Shown one piece after another: positions 8,727 through 12,481 of a stretch of 43,681 nucleotides of DNA (its first letter is position 1; each line of letters begins with the position of its first letter). This DNA is from Candidatus Methylomirabilis sp. (GTDB lineage Bacteria > Methylomirabilota > Methylomirabilia > Methylomirabilales > Methylomirabilaceae). The translations under genes were made by a program, and so were the position numbers. The stretch lies in NCBI RefSeq assembly GCF_028716865.1, contig NZ_JAQUOY010000023.1, positions 1 through 43,681 on the forward strand, given 5' to 3'. A model generated the notes under the pieces. That model was not told the DNA's origin and ran no database searches. It worked only from the letters and a program-made list of their open reading frames with translations.

Positions 8727-9848
8727 TTACATCGTTGATGATACCTTCACAAATCGATTGCCCTGGCCGACCAGGCCTCGGGGCCGAATGACGACCTTCT
8801 GCTCCGGATCGCTGACCACGTGGCCGATCTGCAAGGCCTCCCGGCCATGATGCTTCACGATCTCCACAAAGGACTCCGCATCCGCTTCAGCGACGACGGC
8901 ACAGAATCCGATCCCCATGTTGAAGACCTGGAACATCTCGTGATCGGGGATACCCCCCGATTTCTGGATCAGGGAAAATATCGGAGGGATCGGAGGAAAC
9001 CGGTCAATGACGTAGCCGACTGCGTGGGGCTTTGTATCTAGTCGCAACAAGTTCAGTAGCCCGTCGCTCGTGATGTGGGCGAGCCCGTTGATGGCCAGCG
9101 ATCGCTCAAGCGCCTCGACTACCTCCGGCACATAGATCAGGGTCGGCTCGAGAAGTTCTTCCCCCAGCGTTCGCCCAAGCTCCTCGAATCTGGTATCCAC
9201 CGAATACTTGTTCTGCGTGAACAGGACCTGCCGAGCCAGCGTCAAGCCATTACTATGGATCCCGCTGCTTCGGATGCCAATAATGACATCACCAGGAGTC
9301 ACGGCCCTGCCAACAATCACCTTATCGAGCGGAACATGGCCGACACACATCCCGACCAGATCGCATCCCCATCCCTCACGCTCTGATGCGAGCATCTCCC
9401 GGACCTGGGCGATCTCACCGCCGCAGATGGCGACCCCTGCGCGGCGCGCGCCTTCCTTCAACCCTTGCATGAGCTGATCGATGAGGTCCGGGTTCGCCTG
9501 CTGCACCGCGATATAATCCAGAAACGTCGTCGGGCGCGCGCCCACGCAGAGCACATCGTTCACATTCATGGCCACGCAGTCTATCCCGACCGTATCGAAC
9601 TTCCGCATCCTCTCTGCAACCATGAGCTTCGTACCCACCCCGTCGGTTGAGAGGGCTAGACCCATTCCATGACCGAGATCGATGACGTTCGCAAAAAAGC
9701 CGATAGGCAAGACCGGTTTCCCGACCCCTCGCACAAAGGCAAACGTTTCGCTCACCGTCTCGATCACCCGGGACAGCACCTGCTCTTCTCGCTCGACATC
9801 GACGCCGGCGCCGAGGTAGCTCGCTTCACCCTCTGGATGCTTCTGCAT
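8727..9848 (-). CDS. purM: Phosphoribosylformylglycinamidine cyclo-ligase
   Basis: PurM closes the imidazole ring of AIR in step five of purine synthesis, using ATP, in the cytoplasm. The 373-residue product carries LALSTDGVGTKLMVAERM (nucleotide-binding acidic motif), VGIDCVAMNVNDVLCVGARP, AICGGEIAQ and SSGIHSNGLTLARQ, all AIR-synthase motifs. It is slightly longer than the usual 345 or so residues because of a short N-terminal extension and a C-terminal tail. It stands alone on the minus strand without other purine genes next to it. Confidence 0.95.
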   Translation of the reverse strand: MQKHPEGEASYLGAGVDVEREEQVLSRVIETVSETFAFVRGVGKPVLPIGFFANVIDLGHGMGLALSTDGVGTKLMVAERMRKFDTVGIDCVAMNVNDVLCVGARPTTFLDYIAVQQANPDLIDQLMQGLKEGARRAGVAICGGEIAQVREMLASEREGWGCDLVGMCVGHVPLDKVIVGRAVTPGDVIIGIRSSGIHSNGLTLARQVLFTQNKYSVDTRFEELGRTLGEELLEPTLIYVPEVVEALERSLAINGLAHITSDGLLNLLRLDTKPHAVGYVIDRFPPIPPIFSLIQKSGGIPDHEMFQVFNMGIGFCAVVAEADAESFVEIVKHHGREALQIGHVVSDPEQKVVIRPRGLVGQGNRFVKVSSTM

Positions 9849-10058
9849 TTCCTCTGTCCTTTTACGTCAGAAAGCCTGGCGACGTCACCACGAACCAGTC
9901 AACCGCGAGTCAACAGTAAGAGATTCGCTGGGGCGCGTCAAGCAGTATCGTGGGTTGTCAGGGTGAAGACCACGGCTGCAATAAGAGGGTGAGCCGATTT
10001 ATACCCATTGAGGCGGCAGTGATGAATTTATCGCGTGGCGTGAATCAAGCGGGTCAGC

Positions 10059-10087
10059 TTGCGCATGGGAGCGCGAAGGAGTATGAT
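10059..10087 (+). promoter_or_regulatory. Possible promoter of hicBA
   Basis: TATGAT (10082-10087) matches the -10 consensus at five of six positions, preceded at 17 bases by TTGCGC (10059-10064), a weak -35. It lies about 55 bases before the hicB start. The surrounding 9849-10140 shows no gene. Confidence 0.35.
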
Positions 10088-10140
10088 CCGTTGGAAAAGA
10101 TCTGAAACGACTTTTCTCTTAGCCAAAAAAAGGGACGTTG

Positions 10141-10365
10141 ATGCGTTACTTCAAAGTGATCGTGGAGAAACATCCGGAGGGCTACGTGGCGTATCCCATG
10201 GGGCTCAAAGGGGTAGTGATCGGCGAAGGCGAGACCTATGAGGATGCCTTGGAGGATGTACGATCGGCCATCCGCTTCCACATCCAGACCTTTGGATCGG
10301 AGGCGCTGGAAGCTGAATCCCCCGTCCTGGACGCCTTCATTGCGGAGGCCACAGTCACGGTCTGA
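10141..10365 (+). CDS. hicB: HicB-family antitoxin
   Basis: Antitoxin of a HicAB-type module, 74 residues. The pattern YFKVIVEKHPEGYVAYPMGL followed by GEGETYEDALEDVRSAIRFH is the partial RNase H-like fold of HicB proteins (beta strands, Gly turn and helix). There is no C-terminal DNA-binding HTH or ribbon-helix-helix domain; this short form neutralises HicA by covering its active site. The ATG at 10141 has an AGGGA ribosome site; a TTG three bases earlier is a less likely start. The TGA stop overlaps the ATG of hicA. Antitoxin first is opposite to the E. coli hicAB order but common in the short-form group. Confidence 0.88.
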   Translation: MRYFKVIVEKHPEGYVAYPMGLKGVVIGEGETYEDALEDVRSAIRFHIQTFGSEALEAESPVLDAFIAEATVTV

Positions 10366-10604
10366 TGCCCACGTTTCCGGTAGATGTCCCGAAAGCAAGG
10401 GTCATTAAGCCATTGGAGCGGCTGGGCTTCCGGCTGGTCCGAGAGGGGCCGCATCTGGCGATGGTCCGCGAGAACCCGGATGGAACACAGACGTCCCTCA
10501 CCATACCTAATCACTCCGACATCAGAGGCTCGACGCTCCGCACCATCTGCATTCAAGCGGGTATCGCCCAAGACGAATTCCTGAAAGCCTACGAACAGAC
10601 ATGA
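10365..10604 (+). CDS. hicA: HicA-family mRNA interferase toxin
   Basis: 79-residue toxin with a double-stranded RNA-binding-like fold, predicted to cleave mRNA on ribosomes. VIKPLERLGFRLVREGPHLA holds the conserved histidine (here in GPHLAM, normally GSHH), and IPNHSDIRGSTLRTICIQAGI is the C-terminal HicA signature. The start overlaps the hicB stop. The catalytic region has Pro where many HicA have Ser, but the histidine is kept, so the toxin may be active. Confidence 0.88.
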   Translation: MPTFPVDVPKARVIKPLERLGFRLVREGPHLAMVRENPDGTQTSLTIPNHSDIRGSTLRTICIQAGIAQDEFLKAYEQT

Positions 10605-10703
10605 GTCGGGGCTCGATGACCCCGCGAATGCGCAGTGAGCTTTGTAGCACCAGTTTTCCTGCCCTAATCTAGCCGCGGATGAGACGCCTTGGGTACATTT
10701 GAG

Positions 10704-11192
10704 ATGCTCGGCGCCTACCTTAAAAGAATCTTCGACGTCACCAAACATGGGGACGCTAGAGAAGAAAGCTACTACTCTGGCCTGGAAGAACTCATTAACA
10801 ACTACGCAGAGTCTTCCGGCAAGAAAAAGACCCATGTCACAACCCTTCCCGAGAAAACCGGCCGCCCCGCCGCCCGGTTTGAAGGCGCAGGCGACAATCG
10901 CGTGAGGAGGTACCGATACAGCGAGCATGAGCAGCGGGTGTACATCAACGAAACTCAGTACTTTGAAGGGATCACTCAAGAAACCTGGGAATATCAGATC
11001 GGCGGCTATCAGGTGTTGAACAAATGGCTGAAGGACCGCAAGGAACGAATCCTCAGCCTCGAAGACCTCCAGCACTACTGCCGCGTCGTTACGGCGCTCG
11101 CCCGAACCATCCAGATCCAGGCCGAGATTGCCCGCTTGTATCCACAAGTCGAACAGGACACCCTGGCAGTTGAGCTGTCTCCGAAGGCTTGA
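10704..11192 (+). pseudogene. Type ISP restriction-modification enzyme, internal deletion remnant
   Basis: Open frame of 162 codons that joins the two ends of a very large type ISP (single-chain restriction-methylase-translocase) enzyme. The first part, LKRIFDVTKHGDAREESYYS then HVTTLPEKTGRP, is the N-terminal nuclease start of these enzymes. From AARFEGAGDNRVRRYRY on, with VYINETQYFEGITQETWEYQ and GGYQVLNKWLKDRKERILSL, it is the C-terminal target-recognition end. About 700-1000 residues of helicase and methylase domain expected in between are gone, with the frame kept. It cannot be an active enzyme. The ATG at 10704 is used; an in-frame TTG lies at 10689. It lies between two toxin-antitoxin pairs. 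That the fused product is made or useful is not known. Confidence 0.75.
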
Positions 11193-11401
11193 AGCGTCCA
11201 ACTAGAAGAGAACATCTGCGTGATGGCCCTCCGCTCGATCGTGCAGTCGAGAGAGTCCGTACACCCATTTCAAGCCGCATCCTCAACCGAATTGGCTATT
11301 TTCACCATACGGTAAAACTTCGTAATTTTCATCCTTACAAACCGTACTTAGGCATGATTAGAAGATGTGGCATATTACTGTTCATGGTATATTAATTGAG
11401 C

Positions 11402-11429
11402 TTGACACGTATACGAGGTGTGGTAATCT
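11402..11429 (+). promoter_or_regulatory. Promoter of vapBC, apparently leaderless
   Basis: Perfect -35 TTGACA (11402-11407), 16-base spacer, and TAATCT (11424-11429) as -10. Transcription expected about seven bases later would begin at the A of the vapB ATG at 11436, and no Shine-Dalgarno is present, so a leaderless mRNA is implied. The preceding 11193-11401 is AT-rich and holds no supported gene. Confidence 0.5.
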
Positions 11430-11435
11430 ATAGTC

Positions 11436-11711
11436 ATGGTAGTCAAACTCAAAGATACTTCACGTGAAGGTGTGGTAACGAGGATCGGTAGAGGGGCGCG
11501 GGTGGTAATTCCGGTCTCGCTCCGCAAGGCCCTGGCCCTCAGTCCCGGGGATCCCGTGGTCCTGAAGATCGAAGACGCGACGTTGCGGCTGATTCCGCTC
11601 CGTGAGGCCATTGCGGAGGCGCAACACCGCGTTCGCCGGTATATCCCGGCGGACGCCGGTCTGGTCGAGTCGCTGCTCCAGGACCGCCGGAGAGAGGTAC
11701 AGCGTGAGTAG
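11436..11711 (+). CDS. vapB: AbrB/SpoVT-fold antitoxin (VapB)
   Basis: 91-residue antitoxin. Residues 13-52 (VVTRIGRGARVVIPVSLRKA then LSPGDPVVLKIED) form the swapped-hairpin AbrB/MazE DNA-binding domain, which represses its own promoter in this family. The C-terminal helix rich in Arg and Ala (AEAQHRVRRYIPADAGLVES) is the part expected to bind the VapC toxin. The start is an ATG lying just behind the -10 element. The vapC start codon overlaps the last eight bases. Confidence 0.85.
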   Translation: MVVKLKDTSREGVVTRIGRGARVVIPVSLRKALALSPGDPVVLKIEDATLRLIPLREAIAEAQHRVRRYIPADAGLVESLLQDRRREVQRE

Positions 11712-12087
11712 GGTCGTCCTCGATGCGTCCGCGCTCCTCGCTCTGCTGAATCAGGAGGATGGAGCGGAACGAGTCGCCCCACTCCTGGCGGATGCGGTGA
11801 TTTCAACAGTGAACCTGGCGGAGGTCGTCACACGCCTAGCCATTGCAGGGATGCCGGAGGCCGCTATTCGGGATACCTTGGCCCTGCTTCCTCTGGAATC
11901 CGTCCCTCTTGATGTCGAGGACGCCATCGACCTGGGGCTACTTGCGCCCGTGACCCGGTCCTCGGGACTGTCGCTGGGCGATCGAGCCTGCCTGATTCTC
12001 GCCCGACGTCTGGGCACCACAGCCGTCACGGCGGATCAGGCATGGACGGGCATCGATGCGGGAGTACCTGTCGAGCTGATCCGTTAA
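11704..12087 (+). CDS. vapC: PIN-domain ribonuclease toxin (VapC)
   Basis: 127-residue PIN nuclease, a Mg2+-dependent RNase that in this family cuts tRNA or rRNA. The acidic residues are visible in order: Asp in VVLDASALLALLN, Glu in TVNLAEVVTRL, Asp in GLSLGDRACLILARRLG and Asp in TTAVTADQAWTG, so the active site is complete. The start is GTG at 11704 inside the end of vapB, preceded by GGAGAGAGG; the two are translationally coupled. Confidence 0.9.
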   Translation: MSRVVLDASALLALLNQEDGAERVAPLLADAVISTVNLAEVVTRLAIAGMPEAAIRDTLALLPLESVPLDVEDAIDLGLLAPVTRSSGLSLGDRACLILARRLGTTAVTADQAWTGIDAGVPVELIR

Positions 12088-12183
12088 GCGGGAGAATCAG
12101 CACAATTCTGACACAATTTCCCGGTATCGGCCGTGAGGGAAGGCAACAGCGGGCAATATAACTCGGATTTTAAAAAGAAGTGA

Positions 12184-12259
12184 TGGTGGGCAGGGGCGGA
12201 ATCGAACCGCCGACACCAGGATTTTCAGTCCTGTGCTCTACCTACTGAGCTACCTGCCC
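12184..12259 (-). tRNA. tRNA-Phe (GAA)
   Basis: 76-base cloverleaf on the minus strand. The acceptor 5' GGGCAGG pairs with 3' CCTGCCC, and the discriminator A and CCA are encoded. D-arm TAGCTCAG, anticodon loop ACTGAAAAT with GAA, and T-arm GGTTCGATTCC are present. Confidence 0.97.
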
Positions 12260-12481
12260 GAAACTACAAGGGGATGAGCCGATTACAAAAAGGCTCGATC
12301 TTTGTAGCACCGCGCAGATTATTTGTCAAGGAGTGTAGTTGCAGCTCAAACTGCACTATTGAGAACAGTGCAACCGCATGGTCTCCAGCCCCGAGATCGA
12401 TCGTTCTCACGATTGGCGAGCTTCGTCTCGGTGATGCACAATTTTGCGACATCTTAAGGAGCGTAGCCCCCGTTCAGTTGT

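Follow-up and report, generated by a model that had tools for sequence, protein, structure and literature searches.

Both ends of a type IIG-like restriction–modification gene joined in one short frame in Candidatus Methylomirabilis

Truncated and corrupted restriction–modification (R-M) genes occur in complete genomes; descriptions exist of roughly one hundred solitary restriction genes that are truncated, mostly put down to genome rearrangements (PMC3488263). The solved relatives of the enzyme family considered here are the type ISP proteins LlaBIII and LlaGI (PDB 4XQK, 5FFJ) and the type IIG protein DrdV (PDB 7LO5). The guide subdomain of LlaGI has no part in target recognition and steers DNA through backbone contacts; the methyltransferase domain, the core and the jaw carry the recognition loops (PMC4872093). 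The locus described here lies in a 43,681-nucleotide stretch of Candidatus Methylomirabilis sp. (contig NZ_JAQUOY010000023.1), which we call the window. It too holds a broken R-M gene, but one that has kept both of its ends, fused in frame.

Two ends of one gene in a single frame

The remnant frame lies on the forward strand at 10704–11192 and has an ATG start, a TGA stop and 162 codons. When an intact relative of 1057 aa (from genome G132) was searched against all contigs of the window's own genome, exactly two matches were obtained, both within this one open frame. The N-terminal piece (10704–10859, forward strand) corresponds to residues 15–66 of the relative with 69% identity and, in an alignment with 65 intact proteins, represents the start of the type IIG nuclease domain, ending before the PD...ExK motif. 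The C-terminal match (10863–11162) corresponds to residues 954–1053 with 56% identity. The C-terminal piece itself extends to the stop codon (10863–11192, forward strand) and was assigned to the guide subdomain of the target-recognition domain from its Pfam match (Type_ISP_C, PF18135, positions 250–325 of 342, remnant residues 51–124, E = 2e-17), its predicted fold and its matches to LlaBIII and LlaGI. Both halves are ~50–70% identical to their counterparts in intact homologues, where the two lie ~2.7–3 kb apart within a single frame (one 1057-codon frame in G132); using the remnant as query, G132 and G029 were each matched in two places ~2.8 kb apart, at the start and the end of one large gene. 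Relative to the 1057-aa protein ~887 codons are absent. Residues 67–953 had no match anywhere else in the window's genome, and the remnant is the sole Pfam occurrence of Type_ISP_C there. Comparison with full-length proteins confirms what the original prediction had proposed: both pieces are homologous to one protein, and the remnant represents two ends of one R-M gene, in order, fused in frame by an internal deletion.

The frame had been said to run unbroken across a junction near TGRPAARF, and alignment with the 65 intact proteins placed the breakpoint there, to a range of codons (52–57, KT/GRP/AARF, 10857–10874, forward strand). On the N-terminal side the intact proteins nearly always read KTE[A/T/S/G]GNPDF, with the N of GN present in 65 of 65, and on the C-terminal side they read roughly ELDPP.ARF. 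The remnant reads KT--GRP/AARF, and the join therefore falls within these codons. It immediately precedes the active-site D of the nuclease, and the ExK of YIEAK is lost as well. The data contain no close intact parent, which limits the placement of the join to this range of codons, and the direct repeats found in the window flank a hicBA cassette and not the junction.

A 321-codon antisense ORF (10236–11201, minus strand) spans hicBA and the remnant and is probably a by-product of codon usage. Because it crosses the same DNA, the absence of stops in the remnant is by itself weak evidence; the kept conserved residues are the stronger evidence. The nearest relative of the gene within the same order (L013, G029:C131) is itself frameshifted into frames of 680 and 393 codons.

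We then asked what kind of enzyme the parent was. It had been taken for a type ISP enzyme, and the intact relative does contain a Type_ISP_C domain together with an N6 methyltransferase that begins near residue 315. However, no helicase domain was found in it, whereas a type ISP enzyme would carry an SF2 helicase-like ATPase between the nuclease and the coupler, and it matched the PADLOC model for type IIG enzyme-methyltransferases (PDLC03610) with E = 1.4e-268. Judged by its domains and the PADLOC match, the parent family belongs to the single-chain type IIG enzymes (nuclease, coupler, methyltransferase and target-recognition domain, without helicase) and not true type ISP, the latter term being a domain label here and not an enzyme type. 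The intact relative aligns with DrdV at the N-terminal nuclease and the methyltransferase and is of similar size. The parent family has the C-terminal guide subdomain in common with LlaBIII and LlaGI but is helicase-less and shorter (about 1050 aa versus 1578 aa). The remnant halves correspond to both ends of a type IIG protein of the PDLC03610 and DrdV kind, and annotation may be misled into calling the remnant a 'type ISP restriction enzyme'.

Retained pieces and age of the remnant

In contrast to an intact type IIG enzyme, the remnant lacks the nuclease catalytic residues, the coupler, the methyltransferase and most of the recognition domain. The D...ExK active site is absent, as the cut precedes the PDF...YIEAK segment found in nearly all intact relatives. 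The N6-adenine methyltransferase motifs (DPA.GT, NPPY) are missing from the remnant and from the rest of the genome. Only the Type_ISP_C portion of the recognition domain was kept, without the sequence-reading core. The remnant thus has none of the three features of a functional type IIG enzyme that we looked for (nuclease site, methyltransferase, recognition core) and, like a decaying pseudogene, has lost essential domains.

The kept C-terminus had been described as the recognition end of the enzyme. It instead begins near LlaBIII residue 1467 (hand count on the alignment), inside the guide (1448–1578), and the recognition loops are all gone. A role as a DNA-binding or decoy protein had also been suggested; this idea is weak because the guide reads no target sequence, the catalytic residues and methyltransferase are gone too, and no related gene on which a decoy could act is present in the genome. 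A sequence-specific DNA binder is not plausible. In the AlphaFold2 model, pLDDT was ~95 for the guide part and ~69–85 for the N-terminal part, which makes it plausible that the C-terminal piece would fold by itself; the best PDB fold matches of the model were LlaBIII and LlaGI, although they were weak (E 0.02–0.15).

Of 50 positions that are at least 85% conserved in the intact proteins, 47 are kept in the remnant. The three departures are K50E and N54R, both next to the junction, and D143A, and intact proteins depart from these conserved positions in similar numbers. In a neutral simulation, which assumed 0.08 indels for each substitution and a simple bias toward transitions, the combination of no stop and at most one further conserved change was unlikely beyond ~0.03–0.05 substitutions per site. 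The remnant is young or constrained, and neutral decay fits only up to that distance. This bears out the prediction that the deletion is recent or the frame still kept. DNA near the remnant's site differs by 10–28% between congeners, so the intact frame would need no more explanation than a deletion that postdates the species split. Shine-Dalgarno strength was considered as a sign of decay and proved uninformative, since a Shine-Dalgarno sequence is clear in only 26 of 61 intact relatives. The remnant region yielded neither a sigma-70-like promoter match nor a terminator, which is weak evidence.

Independent losses in other genomes

A single-protein scan of the genome contigs with the remnant frame alone gave no match, whereas a profile scan succeeded and returned 80 loci; ~870 further genomes were then searched. 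The query consisted of the two gene ends only, which biases the sample toward two-ended remnants. Such losses were found in seven genomes besides that of the window, five as simple deletions and two in which other genes have taken the core's place. On the 1057-residue scale of the parent, the window breakpoint is 67/955. L018 is an intact frame of 163 codons with a breakpoint at 112/995, and L044 is a short frame with an internal stop and a breakpoint at 46/935 (approximate, read from the sequence); both align over nearly the whole query. L056 retains more (about 370–390 aa, in frame, breakpoint about 245–265/925, again approximate and read from the sequence), and L030 is frameshifted at its join (65/850). 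L186 (215–1996, G428:C139) is a shortened type IIG frame of 644 codons, in frame, with a breakpoint at 537/1007; here the nuclease and the beginning of the methyltransferase are fused to the final 48 residues. In L187 (224–2405, G503:C1; 152/997) an AbiEii gene and an AbiEi-like gene, reversed, occupy the position of the core. In L188 (306–2865, G467:C89; 100/990) that position is filled by a DNA methylase gene in reverse orientation, beside a 200-aa ORF on the opposite strand.

As the breakpoints are all different, the losses are independent events. Close homologues of the same short length had been named as the finding that would point to a genuine short family; L018 and L044 are of this kind, and their different breakpoints mark them as separate deletions and not as one family. 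Among the copies of close relatives in the ~870 additional genomes the full-length form predominates; three have both ends but an altered middle, and there is no further frame of the remnant's short kind. One-ended remnants seem to be present and common, with candidate short frames at G529:C20, G580:C48 and G876:C7. The remnant had no match in phage records; viral contigs gave one match, to an ordinary relative, and plasmid matches all had less than 60% identity and fell short of 80% coverage of the frame.

The frame is kept at the junction in five of the six simple internal deletions, against an expectation of one third (binomial p ~0.02, by hand). We set this aside as a test of selection: ranking by tblastn is biased toward joins that keep the frame, and in one of the five a stop follows further on.

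The deletion or replacement of the core across the set suggests that the interior of the type IIG gene may be a turnover spot in defence cargo. L187 and L188, where defence genes stand in place of a defence gene's core, may merit a systematic look.

A variable cargo spot and the origin of the remnant

The remnant lies between a hicBA cassette and a vapBC-like pair. Upstream are a small HicB-like ORF (10141–10365, forward strand), which had no Pfam match over the cut-off and was assigned by context as the hicA partner, the same short frame being found beside hicA in congeners, and a hicA toxin-like gene (10365–10604, forward strand; Pfam HicA_toxin, E = 2.6e-11). Downstream are a MazE/AbrB-type, vapB-like antitoxin gene (11436–11711, forward strand; Pfam MazE_antitoxin, E = 1.8e-7) and a vapC-like PIN-domain toxin gene (11704–12087, forward strand; Pfam PIN, E = 1.3e-11). 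The cargo is bordered on the left by a purM-like gene (8727–9848, minus strand; name read from the sequence), conserved and syntenic in congeners, and on the right by tRNA-Phe (12184–12259, minus strand; ARAGORN, Rfam RF00005). In the genus, window 9850–12260 is a variable cargo spot whose toxin–antitoxin modules differ between species. The purM–tRNA-Phe interval is nearly empty in congeners L184 and L185 (about 150–170 bp), and in L177–L183 it holds hicBA and other toxin–antitoxin or unrelated genes. The type IIG gene is absent from all 14 congener genomes searched. This pattern fits lateral arrival at the cargo spot.

Very probably the remnant is a young, non-functional leftover of a type IIG gene. 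An R-M gene of this type would have been acquired laterally into the purM–tRNA-Phe spot; one deletion or a few steps then removed ~887 codons, and with them the nuclease catalytic residues, the coupler, the methyltransferase and that part of the recognition domain which reads the sequence, as comparison with intact relatives shows. The joining of the ends in frame would be chance, and the outcome a young remnant of 162 codons, incapable of restriction or methylation and probably functionless. Independent losses elsewhere point the same way, several of them clearly broken (the L030 frameshift, the L044 internal stop). Against this, the conservation of 47 of 50 positions would also be expected under purifying selection, a confident fold is predicted for the C-terminal piece on its own, and five of six simple deletions are in frame, though the search favours such joins. 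So read, the remnant is a clean example of the loss of a large defence gene, with the core gone and both ends readable in frame.

It is unlikely that the fused frame is instead expressed and maintained as a small protein, in which a helical N-terminal piece is followed by a folded guide that may touch the DNA backbone or bind partner proteins. The intact conserved sites, the pLDDT of about 95 predicted for the guide, the backbone contacts of the guide in LlaGI, by analogy, and the other in-frame short or shortened forms (L018 of 163 aa, L056 of about 370–390 aa, L186 of 644 codons) would be consistent with such a protein. However, the active sites and recognition loops are gone and the guide reads no sequence, the genome has no related intact gene to regulate, the remnant is absent from sister species, and two comparable remnants, L044 and L030, have already been disrupted. 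With a different breakpoint in each case, no shared functional unit has been preserved. The positive evidence for retention is the intact frame and the conserved residues, both of which are explained by a recent deletion. Slightly less probable still is the wider proposal that type IIG genes repeatedly give rise, by in-frame core loss, to small proteins consisting of an N-terminal piece and a guide, some of them retained to bind DNA or proteins.

The genome is a 53-contig draft, and the join might be an assembly error; this is very improbable, as the missing middle is on no contig of an assembly that is 99.98% complete and the join lies inside a contig with conserved flanks. Least probable of all is membership in an ancestral short protein family: L018 and L044 are comparable to the remnant in length and can be aligned with almost all of it, but their joins differ from that of the remnant, no junction is common to several genomes (L018, L044, L056, L030 and L186 all differ), each half is homologous to full-length enzymes, and ~870 further genomes hold no other such frame.

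Around hicBA, two pairs of imperfect direct repeats (9983–9999 with 12268–12284, and 10637–10651 with 12297–12311) echo, on either side of the cassette, short sequences just upstream of tRNA-Phe, and are possibly marks of hicBA insertion. A 55-bp segment matching window 10009–10063 is present on both sides of hicBA in L177 and L178 (G014:C29, G007:C55).
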